From assembly GCA_019096065.1 (NCBI GenBank), contig JAGUCH010000007.1, forward strand, positions 3,990,501 to 4,054,500: DNA of 64,000 bases, given 5' to 3'. The notes below the pieces were generated by a model that worked only from the letters and a program-made list of their open reading frames with translations, was not told the DNA's origin and did no database searches. Origin of the DNA: Paracyclopina nana (taxonomy: Eukaryota > Arthropoda > Copepoda > Cyclopoida > Cyclopettidae). Positions 17,226 to 40,893 of this stretch are shown piece by piece (within the stretch, counting starts at the first letter, position 1; each line of letters opens with the position of its first letter). The translations under genes were made by a program, and so were the position numbers.

Positions 17226-17242
17226 GCACTTCTGCTAGATTT

Positions 17243-18170
17243 TGATGGGCAATAAGTACATCATGTCTCTGGTGCACGTTAAGATCAGAATAGGACTTGA
17301 TTGGACCCCTCCAGTGGAACCTGTGGAAACCGTGGAACCCGTGGAGCCACCAGAAGTCCGGAAGGTTGCCCATTCACCGCTACATCACTACCTCAAAATC
17401 ACAAAACCTCCTTACTCAAAAACACCTTTTTCATCTCCTCCAACTCTCTGATTTATTGCTGCTGCTGCTGCTACTACCTATACGATTGAGCCTAACCTAT
17501 GGCAATTCACCTGACCTTGAGTGGAGAAGTTGCTAACCATTGTGTGGAGGAGTTGCTAGCTGCTACATAGAGAGGACCTGCAGCTGCATGATAACGGAGA
17601 GAAGCAGATGGAAGCTGATGGAACTTGCTGCAATGCACCGAGTGGAGAAGAAGGAGAAGACTCGGGGAGTTCGATGGGGGACTTCAGAGAAGCAAGACAT
17701 GGACCAAGTGCACATGGCCCATTGAGTGAGCTCTGCCCTGCTATTGTCCCACCAAAGTTCTCCAAAGTGTGCTGAGGCATGAAGAAGATGGCCACAAGAA
17801 TATTTACTGCAGTACTTATTTCTTTGTATTTGCTGCCATTAATTTGTGTGGTGTTAAAAGCTGAGTGAATAAGACAACCTTGTTTGACTTTGTTCGACCA
17901 TAACTTGTATAGAGGTTTCCTGGGCAGTTATGCATCCTAGTCTGAGGCTGTTGAGGCCGTTGAGGACATGGGTAGGAAGCCCAATCACTGGTCTACAGCA
18001 CTGAAGCTCGCCATGTGATGTATCTCGCCAGAGTTGGAGCACCGAGGCTGCGGCTTTGGGTCCAAGGCGGGTAGACATCCGGCCAGCACCCGGAGGCTGC
18101 GAACGGTACCGCGACCATGAAGCCGATGCTAACCATCCTAGGCTTCAGAGGGTGTGACCGTCGCACACCA
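17243..18170 (+). repeat. 5' LTR of the giant retroelement
   Basis: 928 bp, TGATGGGC...CACACCA. Compared with the 3' copy, the differences I noticed are one fewer GCT triplet near 17457-17475 and one C/T substitution near 17890. It contains short frames that recur in the 3' LTR; I treat these as LTR sequence, not genes. No clear TATA box seen. Confidence 0.93.
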
Positions 18171-18173
18171 TTT

Positions 18174-18191
18174 TGGAGGCCCCGGAGGGAT
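18174..18191 (+). other. Primer-binding site, probably tRNA-Thr
   Basis: TGGAGGCCCCGG begins 3 bp after the 5' LTR. Its complement ends GGGGCCTCCA, which equals the 3' end (with CCA) of animal tRNA-Thr(UGU) as I remember it. The match is exact over about the first 10 bases and weaker beyond. Confidence 0.6.
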
Positions 18192-19399
18192 TGAAGGCCA
18201 CTTTCTCTCCTAAAGGTTTGATGACCAAAAAACAATGAAGTCCCGGAAAATGTCTTGGTGTGGATCAGGATTCCTGCTCTGCGGCGCAGGTTGGGCCGCA
18301 CGCTGATTGCGATCAGGGTGTGTCTAATACAGTACAAAATCCCGAAGGCTGACGAGCCGATGGGGGTCACTCCGATGGCATTTGGGCCTATGTGGTGTGT
18401 AGGCTTTAGATTCCCTTAGACCCAAATTGCGCATTGATGCCGTTGGCGGGTTGGAACTGGCGCGCGGGGAGTGCAAGAAGGTACAGGCCGTGACGTACCA
18501 CCAGCCCGTTGATGATGTCTTCCATGGACCATTGTTATGATGATGGGCCTACACAAAGTAACAATGACACTGTCTTTCCCGGAGGTGAATGCATGCGTGC
18601 AGGCTCCGCATGGCATAGCTTGGAGTATGGGTGCCATGGCAGCCAGAAAGCCAGCCAAGGTGCAGGTTGCGACCTGAGCCTCTGTTGCCTATCCATTATG
18701 GGGCGAGTGAGCGCAAGAGTGTTGCGACACTAGTGGGTCTCGTCCGTGGGTTTGGCCACACAGATGGAAGAAGATGATGTAATCCATGACCCTGCTGTGG
18801 GTCAAAGAACCCCAAATAGGCCATGCATGGAGCCAGAGTGGGAGCCACAAAGGAATATGCGTGTTTGGGGACCCAAAAAACTGGCTAACCTTGGACAAGA
18901 TGCCGAGGGCACAGGGAAGGTTGGCCAGCCCGCAACTCGAGGAGGAGTGGGCAAAATTATTTTTCATTCACTGAGTCGACACTGGTTGGCGAAGTGGCAT
19001 ACCTTTTTTGCGTAAAAAGTTGATGCACCTTTGTTTCAGAGACCTCAGAAGAACTTAGAAAAACCCTACCACCTGTAGCACCAGTAGTGCTAAACCTTAA
19101 ACCTTTCTTTATAATACAATAAGTGAGTGTACCTGTGCGTGTGTGTGTGTGTGTTTTGTCTTGGCCGCTCATAGCCTTGACAAAAAATAAATAAACGAGC
19201 TTAGCAATTGCAACCTTTTTCTCTGTGTCACTTGACGCGGCGTAGTAATTAGGACAAGCTTCCCTGTGCTTTGAACAGCGTATAGCTTTTAATTCGGTAC
19301 TGCCGAATTTAGTACACACAGTAGTGTACTAAGACCAGAATATTGCGTGTGACTCCGTTGCACCCCTAAAAGATAAGAAATACTTCGTGTGACTCCGTC
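18192..19399 (+). other. Leader of the retroelement, no gene seen
   Basis: 1.2 kb between the primer-binding site and gag, with no convincing coding frame. A GTGTGTGT run lies at about 19136-19155. This is where an RNA packaging signal and a major splice donor would be expected; neither can be assigned from sequence alone. Confidence 0.5.
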
Positions 19400-20830
19400 A
19401 TGCTTTTTACAAGACAAGAAATGGCTAATCAGGATTCTAGGATCACTGGACCTACTCTGGTTGAGGAAGTTACGAAAGTAAAGGAGCGATTGTTAAATCA
19501 TCTTGGGATTAATGAGGACACTTTTCAAGGGTACCTATCCCAATGCACTCCAAATGGGAATAGCAGAGCTGAGTTGCAAAGGTTTATACCACACGTTGCT
19601 TACCCTGAAGCACTAGAGTTTGTCACAGTAACTCAAGCACAAGTAGCAGCTGTATGGGATAGGACTCAAATAGTACTTGTCCCTAGGGAGCCAATTAGAC
19701 CTTTGGATGACCATATTAAGACAATCATCGGGACTATGCCCCTTAAGGACCCAGTAGGCCAAGTTGTAAATGTGGTTAAATACATCGACGCGCTAGACCC
19801 TATTTCATTGACAAGCACTACATGTGCCTTGTTATGCATTTGTTTTGGCCTGGATGAGTTCTTAACTCGTATTGAGGAAAAGAAAACTACGCAGCGGATT
19901 CAAGAAGTTGATGGTAGCTTCCTGACTAGTGCAATGCCAGGAACGCATGAAATGGTTGCGACATTGATATCAAGGAATTGGCAAAAGATACGGACATTTG
20001 GAGATGGATTTGCTATTGTAGCAAGGCTTTACGGGCTACAAAGTGATTATTTCCTAAGGGAACCGCTTAACCTGAAACCACAGAAAAACCCAGGTCAGAG
20101 TGTACATTTTCCTGATAATGAGACGAGTAATGCCGCTCCCGATATGTCCTCGATAGCAAGCCCACCTGGGACTAACCATCATGAGTTCACTACAGGAGCT
20201 GACCTGGATGGCCAAAATAAGTCAGTCCTGACCTCGACTAAAATGAATCCTCGTGATTTGCATAACTTGACTAATTCAATCACGCTTCCTCCAATGGAAG
20301 TTGTACATAGAATGGTACAAAAGATGTTGTCAGGAGGCCATTTGAATATTCAGGAATTGAACACGGTAAAAGCTTACTACACGAAAATGCATGATGCAAG
20401 CACGGCAAATAAAATTATTGCCTCTGCACAAATCACGGCTAAGCACATGGTTGGGGCAAAAGTAGAGTCTATTTTCAGTAAGAATTTAGAAAGAACCTTA
20501 AGCATAGTAGATGCTGCGACGAAGGAAAGAATGGTGCCGGAAACTGACGTCATCTATGATGAGTCTGCTCCAATTTCAGAGAGGCTGAAGTTAATTAACA
20601 TTGATGAGATTAAGGATGTGGAATCAGCCAGACGAGTAATCCTTCAGATGGTTGACCCAAACTTATCCTCAGGAAAGAAAATGATTGAGATGCAGAAGCT
20701 CTTTAGTGTACTTAGCACGAGGGACGAGTTTACTTCTCTCCAAAAGCAAATATTGGCAGAAGGCTACTTAAAGACCCCTGAGATAAGTGTAGCCGCTGGA
20801 GTATCAGCTGACACTTCTAGGAGCATTTAG
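19400..20830 (+). CDS. Gag-like ORF A of the retroelement
   Basis: 476 codons ending in TAG. The sequence is largely helical with charged stretches, for example EEVTKVKERLLNHLGI near the N terminus. It contains no zinc knuckle and no membrane segment. By position (first frame after the leader) it should be the matrix and N-terminal part of Gag; I recognise no domain directly. The next frame (ORF B, from 20843) lies in the same reading frame, separated only by the TAG and four sense codons. Together they look like one Gag coding region interrupted by one stop, either a leaky stop or a true boundary. I describe the break only and propose no joined product. Confidence 0.7.
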   Translation: MLFTRQEMANQDSRITGPTLVEEVTKVKERLLNHLGINEDTFQGYLSQCTPNGNSRAELQRFIPHVAYPEALEFVTVTQAQVAAVWDRTQIVLVPREPIRPLDDHIKTIIGTMPLKDPVGQVVNVVKYIDALDPISLTSTTCALLCICFGLDEFLTRIEEKKTTQRIQEVDGSFLTSAMPGTHEMVATLISRNWQKIRTFGDGFAIVARLYGLQSDYFLREPLNLKPQKNPGQSVHFPDNETSNAAPDMSSIASPPGTNHHEFTTGADLDGQNKSVLTSTKMNPRDLHNLTNSITLPPMEVVHRMVQKMLSGGHLNIQELNTVKAYYTKMHDASTANKIIASAQITAKHMVGAKVESIFSKNLERTLSIVDAATKERMVPETDVIYDESAPISERLKLINIDEIKDVESARRVILQMVDPNLSSGKKMIEMQKLFSVLSTRDEFTSLQKQILAEGYLKTPEISVAAGVSADTSRSI

Positions 20831-20842
20831 GATCCGACCACC

Positions 20843-21610
20843 ATGAGAGGTTACATTGCTGTACCTACGAATGGTCATGTTAAGTATGCAAGCTCACAGT
20901 CAATGAAGGAGATTAGGCACAAATACACTAAAAAGTTTGACCTACATAGTTCCTCATTAACTGCTGAGAATATAATAAATTTTCTGGACTATATGGCAAA
21001 CGAGGCTGGCAGACAGCATTGGTCTCATGCAGCCTTGTTAACAGCTATGTGTGAGGCTTCATCCCAGAATACTAGTGAGTATTTCAAGGGGATGGCTGGA
21101 GAAGGAAAAGATGGTATGGAATTGCTATGGCAAGATATCTTTAATTACACGCAGTTTGTACGTAAAGAGGACCCATACTTCCTCATTCAGGAGATGATCC
21201 GGAAGCCTACTGAGTGCTTCACTGCCACACTTAAGTCAATCCTTCGACTACGAATGAAGATACATAGCACAACCATTGGAGATGGCGGAGATGCTCATGC
21301 AGTCTCTGAAGCCATCTCTGATGGTTTTGCACTTCTAAGACGTCATTGGCCTCAGAATTACCAGTCGTTAGTAAACAAATACAACGACTATCTGCTGAGA
21401 GCGAATATACCTGCTAGGAGTATGCACGCCTACAACATCATGATGAACCTAATTGGCAGTGACCTAGGTACTTATGTGCCAAGGGACCTGGATAGGGCTC
21501 ACAAAGAGGAGAGGCTGCCAATGGTACCCAATATGCGTGCCAAACCTAGAATTGCTATGGTTGAAGCTACTGAAGAAGAGGTGTTAGATAGTGCTAGCAC
21601 TACAGTATGA
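20843..21610 (+). CDS. Gag-like ORF B of the retroelement (capsid-like)
   Basis: 255 codons in the same frame as ORF A, directly after its TAG stop. The ATG has a strong start context (GACCACCATGA), so independent initiation is possible as well as readthrough. The protein is helix-rich with aromatic and Leu heptads (for example FLDYMANEAGRQHW, GFALLRRHWPQNYQSLVNKY), compatible with a capsid domain. This is inference from position and composition. It ends in TGA at 21608-21610, about 95 bp before the zinc-knuckle frame. Confidence 0.65.
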   Translation: MRGYIAVPTNGHVKYASSQSMKEIRHKYTKKFDLHSSSLTAENIINFLDYMANEAGRQHWSHAALLTAMCEASSQNTSEYFKGMAGEGKDGMELLWQDIFNYTQFVRKEDPYFLIQEMIRKPTECFTATLKSILRLRMKIHSTTIGDGGDAHAVSEAISDGFALLRRHWPQNYQSLVNKYNDYLLRANIPARSMHAYNIMMNLIGSDLGTYVPRDLDRAHKEERLPMVPNMRAKPRIAMVEATEEEVLDSASTTV

Positions 21611-21705
21611 AGCTCCGAAACTGCACACAGCGGGCTGCTCTGAAGTAGTAAATAAACCGGCCGAATTGGCTGTAGCACGGTTGCATTTTCGGTGCTGCAC
21701 CCTGT

Positions 21706-22089
21706 ATGTCGGCAGCCTCTGGCCGTAGTCAACGAAGTGCAAAAATAATAAATGAGCTACAAAGCGAGTTGGCCCGAGCAAACTTTGAATTAAGTAGGCA
21801 AGCTGTTGAAGTAGCTATGATGAAAGCTGAATCACCATCTGAGAAAATAAACAGGCTGGGAAAAACTTTTAACATAGATACGTCTAAGTTACCTGAAGGA
21901 AACCCTCTTCAGACCGGTGGGTGCTTGTTCTGCAACCAATTGCATTACGCTACACAGTGTTCGAATTACCCGAACACTAATCTGACCTCGATTAGAAACG
22001 ATGGCACATTGTGTTCATTGTGTAAAGGATTGCACCTTGAGTTTAGGGGAGAAACGTGTTGGAAGACGCGACCTGCTCGTAAACAATAA
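21706..22089 (+). CDS. Nucleocapsid-like ORF C with two zinc knuckles
   Basis: 127 codons in a different frame from ORFs A and B. The N-terminal half is helical; the C-terminal half holds CLFCNQLHYATQC (Cys-x2-Cys-x3-His-x4-Cys, a classical retroviral zinc knuckle) and CSLCKGLHLEFRGETC (Cys-x2-Cys-x3-His-x7-Cys). These knuckles bind genomic RNA. The stop TAA overlaps the ATG of pol as TAATG, so ribosomes ending here could restart on pol. The second knuckle has an unusually long last spacer. How this frame is reached from ORF B (reinitiation, frameshift or splicing) is not clear. Confidence 0.75.
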   Translation: MSAASGRSQRSAKIINELQSELARANFELSRQAVEVAMMKAESPSEKINRLGKTFNIDTSKLPEGNPLQTGGCLFCNQLHYATQCSNYPNTNLTSIRNDGTLCSLCKGLHLEFRGETCWKTRPARKQ

Positions 22090-25000
22090 TGGGACCAAGT
22101 ACAAAAAATCCCAATAAGAATGATAAAGATAGTTACATCTTGCCTTCATTTATGAGGGGAGAATGTAACAAAGAAGTAGGACGAGCTTACTTTGATTATT
22201 TAAAGGAGCACTCTGTAAAAAATGCTGAAATTATGACTCGTGGAAGTGAGGACGAAAAGGCTCTGGTCCTTGCAATAAGGGGTAGAAAAAGTCGGTTTGT
22301 TCCTCAGCATACTATGACTGTGATTGAGATTAGCATAATACTGATTGCAATAACGATATGTCAATATTGCTTATTTGGTTGGAATTATTGGCCAATTACA
22401 GTAATCTGTAGTGGAGCAATAATAGCTTTATGGTACTACTTTGTAAAAGGTAGCATGAATGATGAGCAAAAAACTTGTAGTAATGATGGTATCGTTACAC
22501 ATCTGGCCTCAGTAAATGCTAATGAAGCAGAGCCAGTAACACATTTTGAACCTTTACCGAATCCGGAACTTGAAGATGACATGCTGAGTATATACTCATT
22601 AAAGCTACATAATGTTTGTGAAAGGTATTTTATACCAGTGGAGATAACTGGAAAAATACGTTTACATGCTTTATTTGACAGTGGAGCAATGGTGCAGATA
22701 ATATCACGCACCCTTGTAAAACTGATCGAAGACAAAATTGGTTACATTTTGCCTCGGGTTGAGACTAATTATGTAATTAAGAACTTTAATGGGGAAGAAT
22801 TCCCAGGGAATGAAGCTGTCTCTATTCAAGTTGCATTTGGAAATCGTGTTTTAATCAGACAGGCTGTTTTCCTTGTATCTGATTGCGATACACTATTGAT
22901 GATAGGAAATTCGTTATTAGTGGATAATAATGTCCGGATGACTAGTAAAGATGGAAAGCACTTTATGGATTTTCCTGGGAAATCTAAACATAAGAAAATT
23001 CCACTCTTACTATCAAAAGAGGCTTTCTACCCAGTGGCAATAAATGAGGGGATCACTCTGCTCCCTGGAGAAGAAGTGACCACCATGGCTAGTTTACCTC
23101 ATGATTTACCTGTTATTAGTAATGACATTCAAATAGATTCAGACTCTGATGAAGATGATGAACTTGGTCATACTCATCACCAGAAAAATGTCTATTCCGG
23201 ATTGGCGGATAAGTATTTAAACTTTAAGCCTAGTAATGAGTACCGCGGAGTGACCTCTGAGGGGGCACTTACTGCAGTCACTCGTAAAGGTACTTTCCCA
23301 GTAAATATTGGGAATAATACTGAGGATCCCATCTACTTAAATGCACATGCAGTGATTGGGCGAGCCAGGATTGTCAAGAAACAGAAATTTAAGAGTACGG
23401 TTGCAGCCCATGTGGCTAACATTAGTTTAAAGGCCCTGGAGCATGAAATGGAGTCATGTTACTGCAATTATTTAGATTCGCACGTAATTGTGCAGTTTAC
23501 TGATATAAATGGTCTTTCCTTTACTGATATGCATGTTTTCAATGCCTATGAGCCACTAAGGGGAAGTCACAAGCCTATGATTAGTAGAAAAGGAAATTAC
23601 GTGTTTATCTCATCTAACCAAAGTGATGGTTATGAGGAAATAACTGACGTAATAATTAGCAAGTTTATGAAACGAGAAAAATGGGATGAATTACCGTGGG
23701 CTGTTATTGTTCCAGGACATAAACTTTTGTCTGGCGAACAAAAGCGCATTGTAATAAAGATGAATATGATGGTGGATAAACTTAAAGTAGTATGGCTAAA
23801 ATATAAGTATATCTGCCCACCATGTATGACCATTGCTTTGTGTCCTATTGAATCCTACCTCACTGGGATGGATAGGGTCATAATAACTATGATGATACAT
23901 GAGTATGAGAATTACCCACTTGCTTATCAAAGAAATGAACTAGATAAGTATTTTGAACTAAATGTTCTTGGAGCTCATGGTATCATGTTTAAGTTGTCCA
24001 ACAATGTTGAGTTAATATTCCATGTCCCTAGCGAACATGCAGAGAATGTTGGCTACTTAACCACGCTTATGTACATAATAATTGGTCAATTACGGTACCA
24101 AAATGTGGCTGACGATGTGTGGATTAGAACACTTATGGATGGTGACGTGCATGTAGGTGACCCACTTTGTATGGCAACCACTGCTGCATTGCTGGTGTTA
24201 TCTGGGTTACAAATGTATCCAGATGACCTTACCAAGGAGGATATAAAGACAAAATTCGGTAAATTTATACCATTTGTACTTGAACCACATGGTTGCTCGT
24301 GCAAGCCTTGCTTGGCAAAGAACATGGGCATCAAAGTGCCACTTAAAAGCTTCACTACTATTTATGAAGGTCCTATTGTTGATACCAGTGTCAGACAAAC
24401 AGTTCTAAAAAGTCCTTCTGAACTAGACCTTGTATCAGCTAGCCTGGAGCTTTCTAAGGATGAGAGAAATAACCAAAAACTATATGATGAGGTTTATAAT
24501 CTCCTTTTGAAATTTCCAAGTGAATTTGACCCTCTCCGTGTTTTGAATGGAGTGGCAGGTTATACATTCCCATTAAAACCAGAAACGATCTTGAACATGG
24601 ACTTGGAACATATTCCGGATGAAGTTAGGGAGGACTTTAGGGACCTCTTATTGGAATATAAGACTATCTTCTCAGAAGATCCTAGATCTTATAGGCTATG
24701 GAATGTTGAACCGATGAAATTCCAGTTAAAGGATGATAAACCATTGGTGCCAAAAGTATTCAACATGTCGGAGTATGAAACTACCCAGGTTGACCGTAAA
24801 ATAGCTTTAATGCTGTCATCTGGATTAATTGAGATTGTGGATAAGTCACTTAATAGGTACTCGGCTTGCCCATGTTTCTTGACTTCAAGGCCAAATGATG
24901 AAAAGCTGCCCATGAAGCAACGCAAGCCTCGGCTATTAGTTGACTTAACATCTTTTAATAAAAATCTGATATTTACGACTTCGGAGCACATAGTGCCGCC

Positions 25001-28000
25001 TATCCCTACCTTGCTAGGGATGTTATCTAATTCATGTTTGATGTCATCTTTCGATGTAACATCCGGATACGATAACCTACCTGTGGACTCTGATAGTGCT
25101 GATATGTGCTGCTTTGCAGTAACGTCCCCTCGCAGTATATACAGATCGGTCTTTTTGAAAAGTAAGGCATGCCTCCAAGGGATCGCAATTGCTCCGAGAA
25201 TGTTCGCAGAGCTCCTCCAACAGGCCCTCAACCCTGAGATATTGCCCTTTACATGCGTATATGTAGACGACTTGGTTGTGGCCTGTAAGAACCCTGGCAA
25301 ACCTAGGCCTGCTACGTTGGATGATTACATACGACATTTAGGTGATTTAAGGAAGTTATTTCAAAGCCTCAAGGACTTAAATGCCCTATTACAAATCAAA
25401 AAGACTCAATTAGGTGTTAAAGAAGCTACAGTCTTAGGACACCTAATATCTATTGATGAAAATGGAATTATGACTATGCGAATGCCCGATAAATTCAGGT
25501 CTGCATTTGATGATTTCCCTATTCCTACAACCAAGAAACAGCTGCAAAAGTTTATTGGAATGACAAACTGGTTAAGCCAGTACTGCCCTAATATGGCTAC
25601 ATACACAGCTCCACTGCTTGATGTATTACAGACAGCACAAGGAAAAACAGGAAAGTTCACCTTCACTGCTTTCCAAGAAAAATGTTTCTATAAAGTAATA
25701 GATGAGATTAAAACAGGTATGTCGCTGGCATTGCCACGTTTTAAAGAAGGTTATTTAGTGGTTGATTCTGGGGTAATAAGTACCTCGGCATTATTAATGG
25801 AGGTGAATGAGGATGGGAAAGCTGTGTGTGTTGGTGCACACAGCGCACGCTTTCCTCTATCGGTTTGCCTCTCATACCACTCATTTCAACGTGAAGCATT
25901 AGGAGTTTTAACAATGATAAATCATTTTAAAAGCATACTATTTGCCTATGAGCGGTTGGTAATAGTTACGGATTGCTTATCAATCGCAAGCGTACTTGCT
26001 AGTTCATTTACTGGTAAAGACGCATTTACTCATAGACTAGCAGCTCGTATATATTCCTTGCCTGTAGCATGGAAACTGAGAGCTGTACCTCGCACAGAGG
26101 TAGAAGTAGTCGATGTATTATTAAATAAATACCATCAAACACCTGAGGGTGAAACTGTATTTTATGCGCCCTACTCTATTGCGGGACAGATTACGAAGGA
26201 TATTTATGCAAATAAATACCCTCTGCCCGATGCGATCAAAGATAAGGTGCTTACGACACAGGAATTACTTACACACGTGTATGATACACTTGTGAATTCT
26301 GGAACTATGAGTAAGACTCTACTCCAGAAAAGGTTGCATTGCTTGAATGATAAATGGGTAGATATGATCAGCACGAAACCTCCATTTATACATGACGACA
26401 CGTCAACCTTACTTCACGCGAAACATGATGATGAGGAATTCCTTGAGGAAGAGATACTTTCAAAAATATCTCACTCATTTCATGGTGAAGCTGATTTTGA
26501 TTCACCAGTAAATCATATAGAAAATAACTTAAGAGTAGATACAGTCACCGTTAAGCGGCGAATATCGCCACATTTACCAGGAATTACACGCAACCTACTC
26601 ATTAAGTTGCAACAAAATTGTGAAGAGACACAAAAAATAATAAATCTAATTATGCTTTCGCCTCCGGAGAAAGTACCACTAGATGTTGCTGTAAAATATC
26701 GTGTCCTTGACGGTGCCTTGTTGGTTATATGCAAGAATGTAAAGTTACCTTTTAGCGTTGCGACCAATACGAAAGTATATATGAGTATGCCTAACTGTGT
26801 GTACCTAATGGCATGTATTCATTTGTTACATAACCATTTGGGGAGTAAAAAGACCAATACCCTTTTTACTCAATCTATGTATTCAACTTACTCAGCCAGA
26901 ATCAGTCGTATTATTATTGGTGCGTGCATGCATTGTGCTTTATACCGCCAAGCTAATACTAGATTTGTTGGGAAAGGTCGCTTCCGCATCCCGACTCAAC
27001 CGTGGGAATTAGTAATGATTGATTTGGCCAAGTTCGATGAAACTTTAGTTAAAGGGTCATCTGCAAAAGACCTGTTAGTATTTGTCGATGTTTATTCTAA
27101 GATGATAATTGCTAAGCCGCTATTGGATGCAAAATATAAGCAGGTAGCGAATGCTATGGAAGAAGTAATCTCCTTGTTTGGGGTGCCCAAGACATTACTC
27201 GCAGATAATGGTGCCCAGTTAACGACTAATAAGGCCCTTCAACGCCTTGTTGATCGTTATAAAATTAAGGAGTTATGTCATTATCGAACTTTATCGCCAT
27301 ACAAGCATTCGAACGCTTACGCTGAAAATGCTATACGAATAATAAGGAGTGCATTAGTCTTAAACTCTAACTCATACAATATGAAGTTATGCGATGTGTT
27401 TAAGACTTCTATTTATGCAATAAATAATCGCCCTCTTACTTATTTGGCATATACTGATGATAAAGGGGTGAAGATCACCCCCACACCTTTTTCGTTATTC
27501 TTTGATAAAATGCCGACCTATCATTTAGGACGGGATGTATTTGAAATACTTAGTGAAAGCGAGGACAAAATTCATAAAGCTGAATGGCGTCAACGCATGC
27601 GGGAATATGATCTAGAAGAGCAGTTCCACTTAGAAAAAATGAAGGCTACAGAAAGGCCTTCCTTTAAACCAGAGATCGGATCATTAGTTTTAGTTATAAA
27701 ACACCCCATAAATAAACAACGGTATAAATTTATGGACGATTTGTTTGAAGTTATTGACATTGGACAGCATTCGACTGTGACTGTAAAGCCATACCTTTAT
27801 GACGGGCTTACCCGCGAAGTAAGCCTAGATCATGTTAAGCTTTATAGATTCCACGAATTGTATAGATTCCTTCCGGAGAAATTGTCCGACCTTCTAAAAC
27901 GACCCTACACTCCGGAAGAAATATTGCGTAAGAAAGCCAGAAATGAGGTTATTGAATTTCTTGAAGGGGCAGCCCCTGAAAATCATGAATATAGTTTGCG

Positions 28001-30023: not shown

Positions 30024-30028
30024 ATGAA

Positions 30029-30091
30029 ATGAAGCGGCTGCGTCTCACCTATGATGACCTATACAAGTTAGCTTTTAGAAAGTTTAAGTAG
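30029..30091 (+). CDS. Tiny basic ORF just after pol
   Basis: Twenty codons, ATG six bases after the pol stop, encoding a Lys/Arg/Tyr-rich peptide (MKRLRLTYDDLYKLAFRKFK). Its closeness to pol and amphipathic look are the only arguments for it. It may be chance. Confidence 0.2.
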   Translation: MKRLRLTYDDLYKLAFRKFK

Positions 30092-30762
30092 ACACTCTTA
30101 AGTATAGAAGTTCTGACGGTAAATGTAGTGCCCACTTTTTATGGGACCACTATCTTTACTTTGTCAGTCCAATTGGGCGCACCGTTTTACCAATCAAGTG
30201 CACCCAAATTATGTTAATGCAAAATGACTCTTGCGAACTTGTAGTTTTCACTTGTCGAAAAAGATCATAGAAATGGATACTAACGGGCAATGTACTTTGC
30301 ATGCCCGTCAATAATATACAATATTCATAAAGGAAATGATAAGATGCGGAACATTGCATTGACAGCAAGAAAAAACCTCTACACTGTACTTGGTCCAAAA
30401 TGTTACCAAGACTTGTAAAGGTATCGGTTTCCCTCCTAATGGTTTGAAAACCAAATGGGAATATCGGGACATGCACCTTTTGCAATTCCTTAGCAATGCT
30501 AAGAGTATGTATAAAAATGATAGATGCCAAGAAAGCATTGAACTCGAACTTTCTCAAGGGCTTGTTCAATCCAACAACAAACCAAACCTCGCTTGCTTCG
30601 AAAATAAAACGAAGTTTGTGTAGGTAATTCTTACAGTATTAATGGGACAAATAAATTCGACCTGTTTCCTGACAAATAACGCTACGAATCAGGCTTTGCT
30701 CGATAATTTAGCGTGCCTGCCCCATACTACTATAGAAGGGGGTTAGGCTTACAATAGTTTTT

Positions 30763-30955
30763 AATAAAGTTACAATGCTTTTTACGAAAGCAAAGAACAC
30801 GGATACAAACTCTACACAGTTTGTCGAATATACGTAGAGAACATAGGAAATATTTCGTTTCTAACAAAGATAAAATGCCTTTTATGAAAGCAAAGAACAT
30901 GGCTATAAACTCTACGCATTATGTTAAATATACGTAGAGGACAAGGAAATTGTAT
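30763..30955. repeat. Two diverged copies of a ~90-bp direct repeat
   Basis: Copy 1 about 30763-30857, copy 2 about 30864-30955. Both share GAAAGCAAAGAACA, ATAAACTCTAC or ACAAACTCTAC, AATATACGTAGAG and AGGAAAT in the same order and spacing. No coding capacity. Confidence 0.7.
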
Positions 30956-32395
30956 AACTTCAATCTTTGGGCTTCTTGCAAGTACTGCACTTAGCCCTAC
31001 AAAGCCACAAATGACAAATGGGCCTACTGGCCTAGATAAAGGTTGGCTGTGATACAAATGATAAAATGTTAAGAACGCGCCATGCAAGAGGGAAATTGCA
31101 GATGGGCGTGATATCAGAGGGGCAAAGGCCCCATCTGTATACGGTATTTTTCATGGCAAGTACGCTGTGCAAGTGGGACACAATAAACCCTGTAATGCGT
31201 GAGGGGATTTGTGTTGCAAATTATTAGATAAAACCTGGAACGATATTGAAACTGCTCAGTCATATTAGCAGTTCTCAATTAGTGCTCACCATGGGAAATA
31301 TCATGTGAGCAAATACAATATTTATGAGGGCAAGTGCCATCCATGATGCCATGAAAAAGGCCGCTCCTGACCTTGAGTAGGATGGAACACGAAAATCAAA
31401 AAACTGTACAAAAATGGGATTCGTCTCCCTAAAAAGGGATTTGAAATACTAAATACAGCTTTTGTGCCCGGGTGAATAAAAAGCCCAAACTATGGTCTTC
31501 TTGCCTCAACAAAACGTGGGGACCCACTTCTCTATTGGAATGGGCCATACCCTTGTGGCAAATGAAGAAACCAAAAAGCCTATATGCTGGTGAAATCATC
31601 AGCTTTGGATACAACTGGGGTATCTTGGAGGAGAACAAGTGTTTCCCCATAAAATACCATTCGTTTGCCATAGCAATCTATGCATGCCAAACGAAATTAT
31701 TTTGATTAACGCACCATTTTGGGTTCACTAATACCAAATCCAAAAAAGTGCAAGTTACGCCTTTCCTCGCAGTACTGAGGCGTGAACTACATTACAATAA
31801 GCTAGTAATAAAAATCCTATTGGTACGCTGGTGGCACCGCCACCTCTGCATCTTGCAATAGCTCCATTACTTCCAAATAAAAAGAAAGTTCGATATACGC
31901 CATTTTTCCTTATTGAAAAAGGCGTGAGCTTTGTTATTAATAGCATTGTTAGTGCCCTTGGCACCAAGGTTCAAATAAAATTGAATAAAATTAGCCTAGC
32001 TGCTCAATCTTTTATAGTTAAAGATTTGAAAACATACTTACCTGAATTTTGTGTGACTGCCCACTGCAGTTCCCACAAAATGCAGAAAATTGTGGAGGGG
32101 GGAGTATATATACGTAGCCGCAGGAAATGCAGCCTGCGCCCCAAAAATTTCACAAAATTTGAGCGCACTCGCGCTCTGAGAAAGTATTGTAAACAAATTT
32201 CTAGATAAAACTGGAAATGGCAAAATGCCACAAAAACTATAAATCTGAACACTAGCACATAAATGGTGCAAAATTTGCTGCATGGATTATTATTAGTGCT
32301 AACCGAAATTAGCTGAAAAGATTGGTGCTGATAACCACAATCTTTTAAATTAATTCCGGTTATGAGCACCCGAACTTGATGCATGCATCAAGACC

Positions 32396-33572
32396 GAGCT
32401 GGAATGCAGAGCTATAATAGCTATGCAATTCAGTGATAACAGATAAAAAATAATCTATGAGTCTGTTCAAAATGGCTAGACAAAAAACATTTGAGCAAGA
32501 TAGACTGAATTGTGAGTTGCATTGAGCAAGACGCTGAGCCAGCGCCTGTTGAGCAAGATACTCGACTCCAAGGGGGGCAAAAAGTTGTTATGGAACAAAA
32601 AGATCCAGAGACGCTCCCACACTAGTAAAATCCAGTTTGAGTGGCGTCGTGTGGAGATGTAGAATGGTGGCGCCACCATGCGCCTAACCACGGACCAAAA
32701 ACGTTTTGCCAGAGGCTAAAACGAACAATGGAGATTGGCGCCGCCGGTACACCTACACAATTCACCTGTGAAGGTTTTTGAACCTACCTAAACTCGAAAT
32801 GACCACAATTGGCTCGAGTGGTGACTCAAATTCCGGGGTTTATTATGCGAATACAATGAATAAAATAAAACGTTGCATAAAAGTCAAGAGATCAAAATGA
32901 CTAATGTTATAATGATACCGCTAATGATCGCCAGATGGACCAACAGACGAAAAGGTTCAAAGTGCACTAAGATTAGGCATATTGTTAAATAAAATAAGTG
33001 CTGAAATATGGCTATCTTGCAGCAGCCACATGACTCCCCTCTTTTTTAGTGGAGAATTTGAGTTACGCTAAACACAATTCTAGCAAAACAATCTACGTCA
33101 GCACAAAGTGTAGACTGACATGTGAGAAAATGAAAAATACACATCTTTTAGCCCATTATGGAAAAGAATTATTATGCCATTGCCTAGTGCTTGAGCTTGC
33201 TTTTGCTATGTGCAATGACATACGGCCGGTTTTCCAGTCCTGTAGGGATGATACGAATCCCAAGCCACCCTCAAGGCCTAGCTGGAATGCGGGACGATTT
33301 CCCATGCATCAAGGCTGAGCTGGAATGCTAAAGGAAAAAATGCTGCTAAATTGGCATTGATAGCCCATTAGCACCAATGCTCGGCCGGTAGAAGCTCGGA
33401 TATGGTGATGCACCAAGCCCGAGCTGGAATGCAGGGCTATAGTAAACGCTGTTCTTGAACATTGATGCATCGTTTGCAGTGTCAAGACCGTCAAGGCCGA
33501 GCTGGAATGCCTAGTCCAATGAATGGCCAGTTGTGGGCATTGCCTATGTGCCCCGAGGCCTAGCTGGAATGC
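32396..33572 (+). repeat. Six copies of an AGCTGGAATGC motif
   Basis: The core (G/T)AGCTGGAATGC ends at about 32407, 33290, 33328, 33432, 33510 and 33572. It is usually preceded by CAAG(G/A)CC(G/T) or a close variant. Five copies fall within 300 bp, at spacings of 38-104 bp. All are in the same orientation. The spacing is irregular, so this is not a simple tandem array. Confidence 0.75.
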
Positions 33573-33852
33573 TAGCTTATTTACAGGCCCGAATCTGTGG
33601 ATTTGGGCCGCTAATGATTAATTATGCAATTAAAATGCAATTCTTGACACCTGAGATATGGTCTATGGTCTTTTTGGCCATGTAATGTAAACAATTGGAC
33701 TCGAAATGTGCCTGACTATGTTAATGAACTGCTGAACTCGACTGAAAAGGTGCTGAGCTTCCTACTGAGATGAGGCTGAGCTATCCACTGAGGTAAACGC
33801 GAAATGAGTTGCGGCAAACACAGTAGACACAAAAAGTACTATGTACGTGGAC

Positions 33853-33858
33853 TTTATT
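33853..33858 (-). terminator. Polyadenylation signal for antisense gene X
   Basis: AATAAA on the minus strand (TTTATT on the plus strand), about 165 bp downstream of the antisense gene X stop codon. Confidence 0.5.
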
Positions 33859-34022
33859 GTCCCGAAAGGGAGGCCTCCTGGCTGGTGGGGGCGGGCTGGC
33901 CTTGGGCCACGTTGGGGCCAGCCCTGGCCGGTGCGGTGGCCTACCGGGAACACGACGAGTTCTGCAAAAGAAAAGATGAATATAGTGAAGCTGTGATGGC
34001 TTAAGTGGATAAGTTAGACTTA

Positions 34023-34569
34023 CTAGACGACTCCCTCGAGGGGGTCCGCCTCCGCCACGCCCAAAAGGCGGAGGACCCACGCACTGATGCGGGGGAGGTC
34101 CTCGGGCTCCGCCCACACGCGGCTGACGAGCCGATAAAGGCCTCTTGGCCTGGTCCGATGGACCCAAACGAGGGCGGGGAGCACCACCACGTAATACGTG
34201 GCCGCCCCTGCCACGTTCAGGGCCACGCCCTAGAGGATCTCTTCGGCCTGTAATACGAGAAAAAGTCGAGCTCTCGAGCTTTGACTAAATAGATAACGAA
34301 TAAATGCACTTACGAAGCCCTGAACGGGGCAGGGAGGGCACGCCTCCTCGTGGCCCAAAGGGGCTGAGGGCGGGGCCGCAGGTGGCTGGGGCCACCCCGC
34401 CGCGGACTCGGCCGCGGGGGGCGCCCCTACGGGAGCCTCGGTGGCTGGCGCCACCGTAGTGGTAGAAGGATTCTACATTCCCAATGAAAAGATACAGTTT
34501 TACGAAAGGATTCAACGGATTCGATTCGAAATAAAAACTTACGAACAAGCCGTGGAGGAAGCCCGCCAT
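34023..34569 (-). CDS. Antisense spliced gene X: small membrane protein in the retroelement
   Basis: Three exons opposite to gag-pol: 34569-34543, 34472-34314 and 34229-34023, in phase, 130 residues. Exon 1 gives MAGFLHGLF. Exon 2 encodes a Pro/Ala/Glu-rich stretch (residues 10-62) ending in CPPCPVQGF. Exon 3 begins with a hydrophobic segment (about residues 64-85, VALNVAGAATYYVVVLPALVWV) and ends in a charged tail. Both donors are GTAAGT. The acceptor of exon 3 is TAG|GGC; an alternative ACAG 24 bp upstream would lead to a stop after five codons. A TA-rich stretch lies about 180 bp upstream and AATAAA about 165 bp downstream. Exons 2 and 3 are much richer in G+C than the surroundings. No family is recognised. 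Splicing is predicted only. Confidence 0.5.
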
Positions 34570-34748
34570 GTTTTGAACTTTTTGGTAAACAAGGCGCGCT
34601 ACCAGAAAAATCCGGTCTGAAATCGGCCAAATTTCCTGTAAAAAAGCCTCTTTTTTTTGCGCGCTTCTACGTAAAGTCTGGGAGCGCTGTCAGATGAAGG
34701 TAACGGCTTCGCTAATACCTGCTACCCCACTTGAATTCGAATTCTTTA

Positions 34749-34768
34749 TTATATATATATATATAATA
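34749..34768 (-). promoter_or_regulatory. TA-repeat / TATA-like element upstream of antisense gene X
   Basis: A run of about 10 TA dinucleotides, 180-200 bp upstream of the gene X start codon on its strand. It could act as a TATA box or be a plain microsatellite. Confidence 0.35.
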
Positions 34769-35049
34769 CAAGTACTATAGTATATACTCGAGTATATTGG
34801 AAGCTTTGAGATCAAAATAAAAACAAGACGAGTGCAAATGCAAAAAGCCGGCTTTAAAAAGTCTGCGAGGCCTCGAAAAGTCTGCGAGTCCTTGAAAAAG
34901 TGGAAAAGTCCGCGAGGACTGCGGAAAAGTGCGAGTTATAAAGTAAGAAGTTGCACGCGATGGACAAAGTGCGAAAAGTTACAGAAAACAAGCTTAAATG
35001 CGTGCAAAAATAGAGCGTTCTCCGTCTTGCAACAAGTTCGTGGCGATCC

Positions 35050-36073
35050 TTAGTTGGCATCGCTGTTGACGTCTTGGGAAGCCTTTGAACCAGCTGAATC
35101 CTGGTCCTCGTCTTCGATTGAGAGAGGTTCAGCTTCATTGACTTCTTCTCTGTCTGGAATGGACTCCGCTGCCGAGTTCAAGCGACGATTCTCTCGGGCT
35201 CGAGCCCGACGAGATCGCCTCTTCATGGTCTGCCGCCCATAACCTTCGGCGACAGGTACCTGGAAAAGCGCATGAAAAGAATATTAAGTAACTCACCTAA
35301 TGCTTATGAATTGATCGGATCTTACCCAGCCTTTAGGATTGGGGACCTCGTACAGATTAGCCAAACCTGACATGACGCTGGGGTTCCGGCGCAATGTCCC
35401 GTAGGGGTCCATGGCAGCCATCGCCATTTGGAGCGAATGAACGTCCGGTTCCCGCACGATTGAAACAGGCGACAAAGCCCTGAGATCTGGGGTGCAGCAG
35501 TGAAAAACTGCCGTAGGCTCGGTACTGGGCTTGGTTGGCTGCATTTCTACGGCCTCTCTATTTGCGGCCTCTTCACGAATCGCGCGGAACATGGTCCAGT
35601 ATCTACGGCACCACCGAGATACCCACACGCATCCATAAGTCAACATACCGAGCAGGATCTGAAGACAATTATTGACAGATGAAAATTACAGTAATATGGG
35701 CAACTGTGGTAAAACTTACCAAAGCCATGCCGAGTGAGGCACCAAGACCGATCCAACCCATGATCCCATACCGATGATGGTTGAATATCTCATCGACCCA
35801 GTCCCTCTGGGGGGATACGGGGCGATAGTTGTTTGGTACCACCGGCATCAAATCGTGGGGATTAAAAACCTCCACTTCAAACGGGTCAACAGGGTCTGGC
35901 TCACTGCCAGGCCTTGCCCCCACATCAAGAATGTCACCCTCAGGGAGATCAGATGACGGGCCCACCGGGCGCATAACCTCAGAATCCACGGCGGGTGAAT
36001 TGGATGTAGCCTCGGTGGGAGCCTGTGCTGAGCTGCCATCGGGAGTTAGCGAGATCCAGGCCAACAATACCAT
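35050..36073 (-). CDS. Antisense spliced gene Y: type I membrane protein in the retroelement
   Basis: Three exons, 36073-35720, 35658-35326 and 35259-35050, phase 0 at both joins, 298 residues, with good donors (GTAAGT, GTAAGA) and acceptors (TCAG, CCAG). Residues 1-17 are a short signal-like leader. An acidic, Pro-rich ectodomain follows (about 18-98). A membrane segment (about 100-130) is interrupted by the first intron: GWIGLGASLGMAL before it and ILLGMLTYGCVWV after it. The cytoplasmic part contains cysteine-bearing and basic stretches (about 241-255, MKRRSRRARARENRR) and an acidic C terminus. The intron inside the membrane segment strongly supports splicing, since only the spliced form makes a full-length helix. 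It is divergent from gene Z with 284 bp between starts. No homology recognised; an accessory or envelope-related role is possible. Confidence 0.68.
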
Positions 36074-36357
36074 GATTAAGAAAAAATGAGTCTGGAGTAT
36101 TACAAAAATGGACCGACTGGGACGAAGTCCGATGGGAGAATGATTGGCTATAGGTGAAAGCTGAGAGTTGCAACTGCCTGTTGCACCCTCGCTAAGCCAT
36201 ACAACCTAGGAAGTCGAATGTCCGTGCAATAAGATGATGAGCGTGCGCGCACGCGCCCATCTTATGAGGAAGTGGCATAAGTCCTGTTACCTTATTCTTT
36301 TTTACTTAGACAAAAAATGACCTTGGGTTTTTTAAAAGGGACAACCCACGCATTTAA
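36074..36357. promoter_or_regulatory. Putative bidirectional promoter between antisense Y and sense Z
   Basis: The gap between two divergently oriented genes inside the retroelement. It contains a perfect palindrome GCGTGCGCGCACGC (about 36240-36253) and A/T runs near the Z start. Promoter activity is inferred from the gene arrangement. Confidence 0.4.
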
Positions 36358-37734
36358 ATGCCCGAGAGTGTGGGGCATACCTGTATGGATTCGTATAAAA
36401 AGGGCAGTTTACGCTCTTATAGCAACAGTCTGGAAATGAGCGATAGCTTGAACAGCTTTGACAACCTAAGGATGTCCCTGATCACCGAATCCATGGAAGG
36501 AGAATCTGCAATGGTCTCTATGATGGAAACTGATAAGACTGGAGAATTCAACGAGCAAGAAGTTAGGGAGCTCCTCAAGGACGATGAGCCAGTCATGGAT
36601 CGAGACATGCCTCCTGTCAATAATGAGAACCAAGCCGAGAATCAGACGACTAGACACCAGGACCAAGAAGAACCCCTCGAGGTCCCATTGGAAAGGGTAT
36701 CCTCCAGTTTGGGGTACCCATTACCATTTGAGGATTTGATCAGACCTCCCCACATGGAAGGGCTACAGGCCTATACGAGGGAGGCGAGCCGGACCAGAGC
36801 TACTGTACAGCAGCATTATGATGCAAGCCTGTTGAAGATAGCTACGAAGGAGGTCATGACTGTTGGAAAGGAGGTGCCTTTTGACCTAACGATTCGGATA
36901 AATGGAGAACCCTATGAACGGACCGAGCCCCGTAGGCCATTGAAGGTGAAAAACTTTGACTGCATTGAATTGATTATTGAGCCGGTGAATAAGGGTGGGG
37001 AGATCCCCGATTTCCTTGTTATATTTCCGATGCTAGACAACCTACCAGTCTACAATTTGCCCAACAAGATGGAGTACGACGAGAACGTCCATAAGCTGGC
37101 CAATGTCAGAAGTTGGTCTGCCGTCCAGAGCCCAACTGCTGTCGGGTATTATGTTCATGGGATTCGTGGACAGGGTGGAGCTCAACTCCCTGTAGTAGTC
37201 TCCAAACATTATACCAAACGAGGCTGCATCCAGATCATGCCAACATTGGACTCATCATTTTGGGATCCACGGATGTTTTATGATTTGACGTCACCTTACC
37301 TGCAACTGTATGTGGGACCGCCGTCCTGCCTTAACAATGGCGTGGCTCAAGCCCCACGAAAAATTGACGTGAAGATCGACATGACTGCACTCCTGCCTAC
37401 CATGGTAGCCCAGTTCGTTGATCGGGCCATTGGAACGTATCCACAGTGTGTGAGGTACACGGCTGGGGCTAGGCCCCAAAAGCTAGCCGCATTTGTGGAG
37501 AAGTCCTGGCAACAAAAACCAAGGCGAGGACCTAGACTGTACGCCGATGTAGCTCGCGGGCGCCCTTTCGGCGCAGGAGCGAATGGACCAGACGTATTGC
37601 ACGCTAAGCGCTCCAAAGTCGATAAGAATAAGGAGCGTGTGAACTATCTCCTCCAGACTAAAATGGAGGAAATGACCCCCAGCGACATCAAGGTATTCAC
37701 TGAGGCGATTAATGGATTTGTTGGGCAGTTCTGA
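36358..37734 (+). CDS. Retroelement gene Z, function unknown
   Basis: 458 codons, uninterrupted, no signal peptide or membrane segment. Residues 1-110 are acidic and Ser/Met-rich, probably disordered. From about 140 to 385 the sequence alternates hydrophobic and charged residues as in a folded beta-rich domain (for example FDLTIRINGEPYER, CIELIIEPVNKGGEIPDFLVIFPML). The C-terminal part is basic (WQQKPRRGPRLYADVARGR and KRSKVDKNKERVNYLLQ). It is not an obvious Gag, integrase or envelope. A capsid-like, movement-like or regulatory protein would all be guesses. It sits between the divergent antisense gene Y and the envelope-like gene, 237 bp upstream of the latter. Its length and intactness in a young element suggest it is maintained by selection. 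Confidence 0.7.
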   Translation: MPESVGHTCMDSYKKGSLRSYSNSLEMSDSLNSFDNLRMSLITESMEGESAMVSMMETDKTGEFNEQEVRELLKDDEPVMDRDMPPVNNENQAENQTTRHQDQEEPLEVPLERVSSSLGYPLPFEDLIRPPHMEGLQAYTREASRTRATVQQHYDASLLKIATKEVMTVGKEVPFDLTIRINGEPYERTEPRRPLKVKNFDCIELIIEPVNKGGEIPDFLVIFPMLDNLPVYNLPNKMEYDENVHKLANVRSWSAVQSPTAVGYYVHGIRGQGGAQLPVVVSKHYTKRGCIQIMPTLDSSFWDPRMFYDLTSPYLQLYVGPPSCLNNGVAQAPRKIDVKIDMTALLPTMVAQFVDRAIGTYPQCVRYTAGARPQKLAAFVEKSWQQKPRRGPRLYADVARGRPFGAGANGPDVLHAKRSKVDKNKERVNYLLQTKMEEMTPSDIKVFTEAINGFVGQF

Positions 37735-37971: not shown

Positions 37972-39702
37972 ATGTCGTTTGAATTGGTCTTCATACTCAC
38001 CCTTCTGGGACCTGGCACTTGGGGCCTATCCAACTACCCAAATACCCAGTTTGTACTGGATGAGGCGCTTTGCCATTCTGGACATGCCCTAGTTCCAGTT
38101 AGAGTGGTCCATCATCCTAGAATGGTGAAAAAGGCTATGGTGTTAGATACGAAGGATTACAGTGGCCTTTTGCAATCAACAATTGGCGTCCTGAATAATA
38201 TTGACACCGTGGTAAAAGAAGTTAAGGACAAGGAGGACTTGGTCCATATTGGGAATATGGTGGCAGTTGGCGAAGAAAGTACCCCTAACACCATCGACAA
38301 AGCTTGTTCCAAACGTCAAGGGTTTGTACCATTTGCCCCTAAAACTCATGAAGACATGGACGTTTTTCTAGAACTATTACGTTATACTGCAAAGGAAAGC
38401 CCTCTTGCCCCTAAGGTAACTTTATGTGTGAAATTTCGGATTGTCAATGAGGTACCTATGTCCTTGGATGGAAAAACCACATTTCCCCAAGTGGGGTATG
38501 AGAAAAAACCGGACGATCAGATTATTGCAGGTTACCCGTGTATCACGGGGTATTTCACTGTGGGACCAGGACAGAAGACCATGACTTCGGTTAATGCCCA
38601 TGCACCACACAGTGATGGGAAGGCAACGATGTGTGTCCAAAATGACTTTGTCATCACCCATAAGGACTTTGTCAAATCTGAATTGTCTGGGAGGAAAAGC
38701 TTCCTTGAAAAGGCCTACAACGCCGTGATGGCCTTAGCAGAATCAGGTAAATCGACAAAATTCACTGATGGCATGATAGCAAATACCACTCCACTGAGAG
38801 TTCCACCGAAAGTTTCTTTGGCCTTACGACTACTGAAAGGTTTTAGCAAGGTCTTTTTGAAGTCTGGATTAATACCAAATGATCTGCAGCAAGTATTGTC
38901 ATATGCTGACACAGTTGTGCAATTTGCCAGAAATTTTGGACAGGCAGGCACACGGTTCAGCATACCAACTCTGGCGCATAATAGTGACAGGAATGCGGCC
39001 ACCATTACTAATGTTTATGAACCTTTGGCGAACACTGAGCAGAGTGGAGATTTTGTCACTCAGGGAATAGTCGGGTATAAGGAAATGGACCCTACCCCTG
39101 AGGTCACATATCATATTGTGTCACGAAGCAAAAATGGATTCTTGTTGCATGAAAGGTATTTGACCCGCCGAAATGATCTAGTGTTTGTGTCTCGGGAAAT
39201 ACCCACCTATAGTGATTGCTTTGTTCATGACCATAATTTAACCGTGTGTGAAAACAAGGACTTTGACTTGACAGAAGGAGTCCAACACTGTGCTAAAGTA
39301 CTTTTGGGGCTAGCTCTGGGTGACCCATTTGACGCCTGTGAATTAGAGCCACTTAAAACTAACACGCTCACTGATGTGGGATGTGCAAATTATAAAGGGT
39401 TCTTAAATTTGGTCTCAAGTGCAATGATTAATAGGACTTGTTTAAATGACTTCAAGAACTCGATGGTATTGGAACCAGGATCCTACCAAATCCTGAGCAA
39501 CTGTAAGGTTTCCCTTGGAACCCAAAGTACTGGATATGAGGACTCTCCTTGGGAAAGTGATATGGTGAAGTTCTTTACTAAATTCCCTGAGGATGAGATT
39601 GGAGGTTTATTCAATAATTGGGAAATAATCCTAACGGTGAGCCTATTGTCTGCGGCACTGGGATTCACATGTATGGGCATTTTGATTTGGAAGAGGCGGT
39701 GA
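37972..39702 (+). CDS. env: Envelope-like glycoprotein of the retroelement
   Basis: 576 codons. Residues 1-19 are a signal peptide (FELVFILTLLGPGTWG). The large ectodomain has scattered cysteines (for example CHSG, LCVKF, YPCITG, MCVQN, CFVHDH, TVCEN, HCAKV) and several potential N-glycosylation sites (NTT, NLT, NRT). A hydrophobic segment near the C terminus (about 550-573) is followed by KRR. This is the usual plan of a class of membrane fusion or attachment glycoprotein, but I cannot assign it to a known envelope family and see no clear fusion peptide or furin site. The frame stops at TGA (39700-39702). The same frame stays open for another 51 codons to a TAA at 39856-39858, rich in Arg and Tyr. 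The bases around the stop also form a splice donor (GCG|GTGAGT). I report the break without proposing a joined protein. Confidence 0.8.
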   Translation: MSFELVFILTLLGPGTWGLSNYPNTQFVLDEALCHSGHALVPVRVVHHPRMVKKAMVLDTKDYSGLLQSTIGVLNNIDTVVKEVKDKEDLVHIGNMVAVGEESTPNTIDKACSKRQGFVPFAPKTHEDMDVFLELLRYTAKESPLAPKVTLCVKFRIVNEVPMSLDGKTTFPQVGYEKKPDDQIIAGYPCITGYFTVGPGQKTMTSVNAHAPHSDGKATMCVQNDFVITHKDFVKSELSGRKSFLEKAYNAVMALAESGKSTKFTDGMIANTTPLRVPPKVSLALRLLKGFSKVFLKSGLIPNDLQQVLSYADTVVQFARNFGQAGTRFSIPTLAHNSDRNAATITNVYEPLANTEQSGDFVTQGIVGYKEMDPTPEVTYHIVSRSKNGFLLHERYLTRRNDLVFVSREIPTYSDCFVHDHNLTVCENKDFDLTEGVQHCAKVLLGLALGDPFDACELEPLKTNTLTDVGCANYKGFLNLVSSAMINRTCLNDFKNSMVLEPGSYQILSNCKVSLGTQSTGYEDSPWESDMVKFFTKFPEDEIGGLFNNWEIILTVSLLSAALGFTCMGILIWKRR

Positions 39703-39950
39703 GTATGCAGCCGATGCTATGATGATGGAGGCTATGTGAGACCTAATACGTCCCGCTCACGGCGTCGCTACAATAGAGGAGATCGCAAGAAAGATGCTAA
39801 TCAAAATCAGCGCCTTACTGTGCGAATGAGTGGCCTGGGAGGCGCGACGTTAGTATAATAACTGTATCACCCTTAATGTGATGTAAGCGATCAATGACAC
39901 CTTTTTTATATTTTTAGAGCTTAAAAAATATTTCAAAAGCTGAAAAAGTT

Positions 39951-39962
39951 AGGGCCGGGGAA
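39951..39962 (+). other. Polypurine tract before the 3' LTR
   Basis: AGGGCCGGGGAA immediately upstream of the 3' LTR; purine-rich apart from two C. Position fits the primer for plus-strand DNA synthesis. Confidence 0.55.
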
Positions 39963-40893
39963 TGATGGGCAATAAGTACATCATGTCTCTGGTGCACGTT
40001 AAGATCAGAATAGGACTTGATTGGACCCCTCCAGTGGAACCTGTGGAAACCGTGGAACCCGTGGAGCCACCAGAAGTCCGGAAGGTTGCCCATTCACCGC
40101 TACATCACTACCTCAAAATCACAAAACCTCCTTACTCAAAAACACCTTTTTCATCTCCTCCAACTCTCTGATTTATTGCTGCTGCTGCTGCTGCTACTAC
40201 CTATACGATTGAGCCTAACCTATGGCAATTCACCTGACCTTGAGTGGAGAAGTTGCTAACCATTGTGTGGAGGAGTTGCTAGCTGCTACATAGAGAGGAC
40301 CTGCAGCTGCATGATAACGGAGAGAAGCAGATGGAAGCTGATGGAACTTGCTGCAATGCACCGAGTGGAGAAGAAGGAGAAGACTCGGGGAGTTCGATGG
40401 GGGACTTCAGAGAAGCAAGACATGGACCAAGTGCACATGGCCCATTGAGTGAGCTCTGCCCTGCTATTGTCCCACCAAAGTTCTCCAAAGTGTGCTGAGG
40501 CATGAAGAAGATGGCCACAAGAATATTTACTGCAGTACTTATTTCTTTGTATTTGCTGCCATTAATTTGTGTGGTGTTAAAAGCTGAGTGAATAAGACAA
40601 CCTTGTTTGACTTTGTTTGACCATAACTTGTATAGAGGTTTCCTGGGCAGTTATGCATCCTAGTCTGAGGCTGTTGAGGCCGTTGAGGACATGGGTAGGA
40701 AGCCCAATCACTGGTCTACAGCACTGAAGCTCGCCATGTGATGTATCTCGCCAGAGTTGGAGCACCGAGGCTGCGGCTTTGGGTCCAAGGCGGGTAGACA
40801 TCCGGCCAGCACCCGGAGGCTGCGAACGGTACCGCGACCATGAAGCCGATGCTAACCATCCTAGGCTTCAGAGGGTGTGACCGTCGCACACCA
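39963..40893 (+). repeat. 3' LTR of the giant retroelement
   Basis: 931 bp, same ends (TGATGGGC...CACACCA) and nearly identical to the 5' copy. It is followed by ATTT, matching the 4 bases before the 5' LTR. Confidence 0.93.

Follow-up and report, generated by a model that had tools for sequence, protein, structure and literature searches.

A window of 64,000 nucleotides from the copepod Paracyclopina nana (GenBank assembly GCA_019096065.1, contig JAGUCH010000007.1, positions 3,990,501 to 4,054,500) was analysed, and window coordinates below refer to this whole stretch. At 17243–40893 it contains a retroelement bounded by long terminal repeats (LTRs), which probably represents a lineage of giant LTR elements with the anatomy of complex endogenous retroviruses, including a predicted antisense gene and a putative regulator, ORFx. 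The features observed are the LTRs, 4-bp target-site duplications (TSDs), gag, a pol with its domains in order, an env-like membrane-protein gene, many copies whose LTRs are nearly identical, and a gene order common to four families. A broader proposal is more tentative, and we place it somewhat below an even chance: a family-level lineage apart from the known Metaviridae and Retroviridae, expressed from two strands, with a transcription factor of p53 fold and a spliced antisense membrane gene that predates the split of the four families (A to D).

A single substitution and one TGC triplet distinguish the 928-bp 5′ LTR (17243–18170, ends TG..CA) from the 931-bp 3′ LTR (39963–40893), and the flanks ATTT (17239–17242 and 40894–40897) form the TSD. 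These comparisons bear out the first-pass annotation, made from the window sequence, which had described LTRs of these sizes about one base and one triplet apart and an ATTT duplication. All genes lie on the plus strand unless stated otherwise. A primer-binding-site-like stretch (18174–18190) begins with TGG three bases past the 5′ LTR, and a polypurine-like tract, GGGCCGGGGAA (39952–39962), adjoins the 3′ LTR; both are near-identical in families A and B. The gag region (19400–22089) is disrupted by an in-frame stop at 20828 and by a frame change ahead of its last part. The pol gene (22089–30023) is open over 2,644 codons, as had been stated, and the gap between pol and env, put earlier at about 7.9 kb, measures 7.95 kb. 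It comprises a spacer of about 6.3 kb (30024–36357) and ORFx, an open reading frame (ORF) of 458 codons (36358–37734). The envelope-like gene of the earlier description corresponds to an ORF of 576 residues (37972–39702) with a C-terminal hydrophobic, presumed membrane-spanning, segment. The frame ends directly past this span, with 585 residues against 637 in 35 of the 40 long env matches in the genome. The broken gag, the early end of env and the predicted antisense coding exons in the spacer had not been noted before. The window copy is a young but damaged member of its family, with lesions in gag and env and with pol and ORFx open.

Copies were sought in a single assembly (91.95 Mb, 10 contigs); the counts for env, ORFx and pol, but not that for gag, take in the window copy and are to be read as minimum figures. 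The best 40 of 127 candidate LTR matches were scored, and all were 97%–100% identical, many of them paired about 22.3 kb apart. There were at least 40 env matches of at least 560 residues at 86% identity or more (38 of 40 free of stops) and at least 37 ORFx matches of at least 446 residues at 92% or more (36 of 37 free of stops). Among the best 18 of 633 pol candidates scored, 15 spanned residues 1–2640, and 12 of these were stop-free. For gag, a stop-free frame of 863 residues was present in 34 of the 91 matches listed, and several others were broken.

Both LTR regions of 30 other family A copies (env match rows 2–31) were compared. One LTR was not found in the fetched stretch for L028/L029 and L074/L075, and 28 pairs were readable. 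Twenty pairs had no substitutions (one compared across only 817 bp, because the fetched stretch cut that LTR), five had one, two had two and one had four. A matching 4-bp flank was present in 26 of the 28 copies and absent in L052/L053 and L080/L081, while all seven family B copies had a 4-bp TSD and zero to two LTR substitutions. The TG..CA ends and the short duplication of fixed length are those of Metaviridae. The family is young, its age being read from LTR identity with an uncalibrated clock, and the genome contains dozens of recently inserted retrovirus-like elements of 19–25 kb. The host assembly holds dozens of other copies with the same internal genes and order, and the LTR pairs measured among them are identical or nearly so. 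There is thus good support for the earlier view that large env-bearing elements form a lineage active in recent times.

The order gag–pol–spacer–ORFx–env–LTR is shared by the window family A and by three further families. The family B element (C4:9027721–9052449) is 24.7 kb long with identical LTRs of 709 bp and flanks GCTT, that of family C (C6:1142445–1161340) is 18.9 kb with identical 615-bp LTRs, and that of family D (C3:3593470–3616291) is 22.8 kb with 600-bp LTRs at 99.8% identity. Identity to A in the reverse transcriptase (RT)-integrase core was 81% for B, 63% for C (first 1005 of 1101 residues) and 51% for D. The corresponding values were 44%, 27%–28% and 29% for env, and 42%, 24%–25% and 20%–22% for ORFx. 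A broken, older copy, L107 (C9:720111–723285), is intermediate, with 65% identity in env and 69% in ORFx. Two ORFs behind pol in family D (L102:6122–6754 and 6888–7631) matched DUF5662 (Pfam E values 6.8e-10 and 3.3e-8) and possibly represent a further captured gene.

Pol contains two hydrophobic stretches, a protease-like FDSG motif (ALFDSG, residue 194), RT (YVDD, 1058), RNase H (1193–1304), an integrase core (rve, 1653–1727) and a long C-terminal tail. This order of protease, RT, RNase H and integrase is that of Metaviridae. Of the Pfam matches to these domains, only RVT_1 exceeded its cut-off, those to RNase H, the integrase core and the protease falling short. The best solved relative by sequence was Ty3 Gag-Pol (E 1.6e-23), retroviral chains being weaker. 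The sole close relative in the protein search was P0001, a pol of 2,574 residues on a 25.9-kb ENA contig, which may derive from the same species or from a relative. It is 46% identical to A over the whole RT-integrase core; for the other hits the identity was 21%–27%. The hydrophobic pair ahead of the protease (window 22296–22445, pol residues 70–119) was found in A, B and P0001; one such stretch was scored in C and none in D.

A quick tree was built from 43 RT-integrase rows, namely families A–D and those 39 of the 42 protein hits whose aligned part exceeded 400 residues; it included no chosen caulimoviral, Belpao or copia references and was midpoint-rooted for drawing only. Families A–D and P0001 formed a clade (support 100), and a branch 3.78 changes per site long joins them to Ty3-type hits and to two vertebrate hits that, from their Pfam domains, we take to be retrovirus-like and that themselves lie on a branch of 2.92. 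Because of these long branches and of composition warnings among the rows, P0001 included, rooting and placement are unsafe. The six Pfam matches of the window proteins included no Pao-type row, and no direct comparison with Belpao sequences was made. The pol sequences suggest a deep lineage on the Ty3/retrovirus side, nearest to Ty3 but on a very long branch. The pol order, the TG..CA LTRs, the 4-bp TSD and the best solved relative agree with the earlier assignment to Ty3/gypsy, but this assignment is tentative, because the 3.78-per-site branch joins the clade to Ty3-type and retrovirus-like hits alike.

What weighs against the reading as a complex retrovirus-like lineage, apart from the damage to gag and env in the window copy, concerns the predicted models of ORFx and env and the evidence for the antisense gene, and is given here with the alternatives that it favours. 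Between the window copy and L107, ORFx mismatches by codon position were 97:48:33, highest at the third position. Its model has a low-confidence N-terminus, a core whose predicted fold resembles that of the p53 DNA-binding domain, and C-terminal helices; Foldseek matched it to p53, CP2 and grainyhead at E ≤ 0.001. The template modelling (TM) scores of these matches were below 0.5, with root-mean-square deviations of 6.4–9.9, and the model is weak overall (mean predicted local distance difference test [pLDDT] 58, core about 75). Similarity to the p53 family was not detected in the sequence: a profile of alignment A4 searched against all PDB sequences up to E 10 gave no p53 and one weak hit, to talin. 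The p53 family carries a zinc site with a characteristic Cys/His ligand pattern, and this site is not kept, as no Cys or His is invariant in A4 (seven sequences, four from family D). It is therefore a serious alternative, to which we give rather less than half the weight, that ORFx is no transcription factor and its β sandwich is of another type, serving RNA export, packaging or structure.

The env-like gene shows the same codon-position pattern against L107 (233:101:62, third position highest), and its cysteines and membrane span are kept between families at 27%–44% identity. It had no Pfam match, including none to Baculo_F-type fusion proteins, a homologue search with it found none, and its moderate model (pLDDT 68, predicted TM score 0.44) gave no fold match at E ≤ 0.001, so that a fusion function is left without fold support. 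These results would suit a purely intragenomic retrotransposon whose env-like gene has no role in entry. However, env is open in 38 of the 40 long matches, with biased third positions, and is conserved in the features just named, and we regard the purely intragenomic alternative as unlikely.

Comparison of the families supports the presence, in the interval from pol to ORFx, of an intron-bearing antisense gene whose product would be a membrane protein, and coding constraint on this gene as on ORFx and env. Family A has minus-strand ORFs at 36205–35672 and 35685–35296, and minus-strand ORFs are also present in B, C and D. They can be joined at a GT-AG intron of 61 nt in A (35719–35659), 91 nt in B and 61 nt in C and D, which in the copy examined from each of the four families is in phase 0 and splits a single hydrophobic span (..GMAL|ILLG.., ..TVIL|VLLI.., ..CTLV|LCLI.. 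and ..VWII|IILS.. in A, B, C and D). In the window, the predicted exon 1 (35720–36073, minus strand) begins with ATG and has 118 codons, and predicted exon 2 (35293–35658) encodes the rest of the span, a basic tail and the stop; the front of the predicted protein, judged by eye, is acidic and rich in Pro, Ser and Thr. In exon 1 both the ATG and the frame are preserved relative to L107 (MVLLAWISLT/MATLAWISLI), with mismatches of 39:19:18, highest at the third position; ORFx and env of the same pair served as positive controls, and an untranslated stretch, used as a negative control, gave 15:18:14.

A second minus-strand coding block of 68 codons with a hydrophobic stretch (34026–34229) lies within an island (34008–34254) that is 76% identical in nucleotides between A and B. 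Mismatches in the island were 32:14:8, in excess at third positions of the minus frame, and 26:12:5 inside the ORF proper. The search that matched this block in B and D found no match in C. The block (34229–34026) may be a third exon or a second gene.

All of this could be imitated by chance open frames in a fast-evolving spacer. The transcript and its splicing are predictions from genome comparison, the codon-position figures come from a single pair of sequences for each block, exons 1 and 2 diverge strongly between families, and the antisense pieces of A, B, C and D had no Pfam match below E 0.2. Against chance stand the same phase-0 intron dividing the membrane span in four families, the excess of third-position mismatches seen, alongside controls, in each of two distinct blocks, and a scan of six spacer pieces for a strong donor, an intron of 50–100 nt, open frames on both sides and a hydrophobic span at the join. 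These criteria were chosen after the intron had been seen; the scan returned a single candidate per family in all four, in every case on the minus strand, and nothing on the plus strand, against one in 360 dinucleotide shuffles. We consider the absence of an antisense gene very unlikely.

The spacer piece at 31000–33500 (2.5 kb) was found at other copies, the best 40 of 57 candidates being scored, window included. From about 31870 on the copies are 86%–95% identical, over a shorter stretch in some; 31000–31870 is patchy and could hold old insertions. LTR spacings of 28–32 kb, with several kilobases of extra DNA inside, were observed at C1:2620487–2649499, C2:16519080–16549072 and C3:3945511–3978109. 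That the element is one of ordinary size enlarged by nested insertions, as these three copies might suggest, is highly improbable, because the interior DNA at 40 scored places is not a separate insertion within one copy, as the 30–37 kb part might have been, and the gene order recurs in families B, C and D; nested insertion as the origin of the spacer core is ruled out by the layout shared among copies and families.

The complex retrovirus-like element that we favour would replicate by reverse transcription of an LTR-driven RNA and integrate by its own integrase. Replication of this kind is suggested by family D, in which ORFx has a 62-bp GT-AG intron in L103, L104 and L106, and exactly this stretch is absent from L111 (C3:2725500–2730500), the expected trace of reverse transcription of spliced sense RNA; that the other D copies instead gained the intron is conceivable but would be a less simple account. 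ORFx, with its low-confidence acidic front, p53-like core and basic tail in the predicted model, might be a nuclear DNA-binding regulator of the LTR or of an antisense promoter. Env may mediate entry into cells or passage from one cell to the next, and a lectin-like domain might provide the contact with a receptor. The membrane protein of the antisense gene would be made from a separate minus-strand transcript, and the intron of that gene would persist because splicing there is impossible in the sense genomic RNA.

Around the element, the window contains matches to the host genes NELF-A, arginase, acetyl-CoA synthetase, M14 carboxypeptidase, galactosyltransferase and an amiloride-sensitive channel (3524–5179, 10942–11709, 12139–13086, 41373–41705, 47806–48603 and 52318–52818). 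Inverted repeat pairs with AAGCTT-rich tandem motifs lie outside the element about 39–40 kb apart and are 94%–95% identical (15474–15693/55646–55865 and 16100–16261/55376–55537). Degenerate telomere-like repeats of the CCTAA/TTAGG type occur at the starts of contigs C2, C5, C6 and C7 (L013, L016, L017 and L018); C1 starts with a CCTGGC repeat instead, and the starts of C8 and C9 are masked.

The usual picture of an env-bearing LTR element is gag-pol-env and little else. In this genome, four families of up to 24.7 kb reside together and appear to retain an intron-bearing antisense membrane gene and another gene whose product is predicted to have a p53-like fold. If borne out, this would extend complex retroviral regulation and the use of both strands to a deep lineage beyond the known retroviruses. 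Because only sense introns are lost on copying, the antisense intron offers a test of intron retention in retroelements, and in a compact genome with many very recent insertions expression is testable now.

With Ty3 and the Metaviridae, including the env-bearing errantiviruses, the element shares the order of protease, RT, RNase H and integrase, the short TSD, the TG..CA LTRs and an env behind pol. It differs from them in its length of 19–25 kb, the predicted antisense gene, ORFx, an env without Pfam match, a core 21%–27% identical to hits other than P0001, and a D-to-E spacing of 39 residues in the integrase of A and B. Among complex retroviruses, human T-cell leukemia virus type 1 has the antisense gene HBZ, and spumaviruses have a DNA-binding transactivator. 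The element resembles such viruses at the level of layout, with gag, pol and env accompanied by a putative regulatory gene and by a predicted spliced gene in antisense; this antisense gene would encode a membrane protein and is placed between pol and ORFx, and ORFx precedes env. The giant Ty3-type elements of plants (Ogre, Grande and Retand) are large and have additional ORFs beyond gag-pol, some of them antisense. The likeness to these, by description, is in size and in the additional ORFs, the latter being the subject of a 2011 paper on plant Ty3/gypsy elements named in the references of PMC5718144. The copepod element differs from them in having an env-like gene and a putative intron-bearing antisense gene for a membrane protein.
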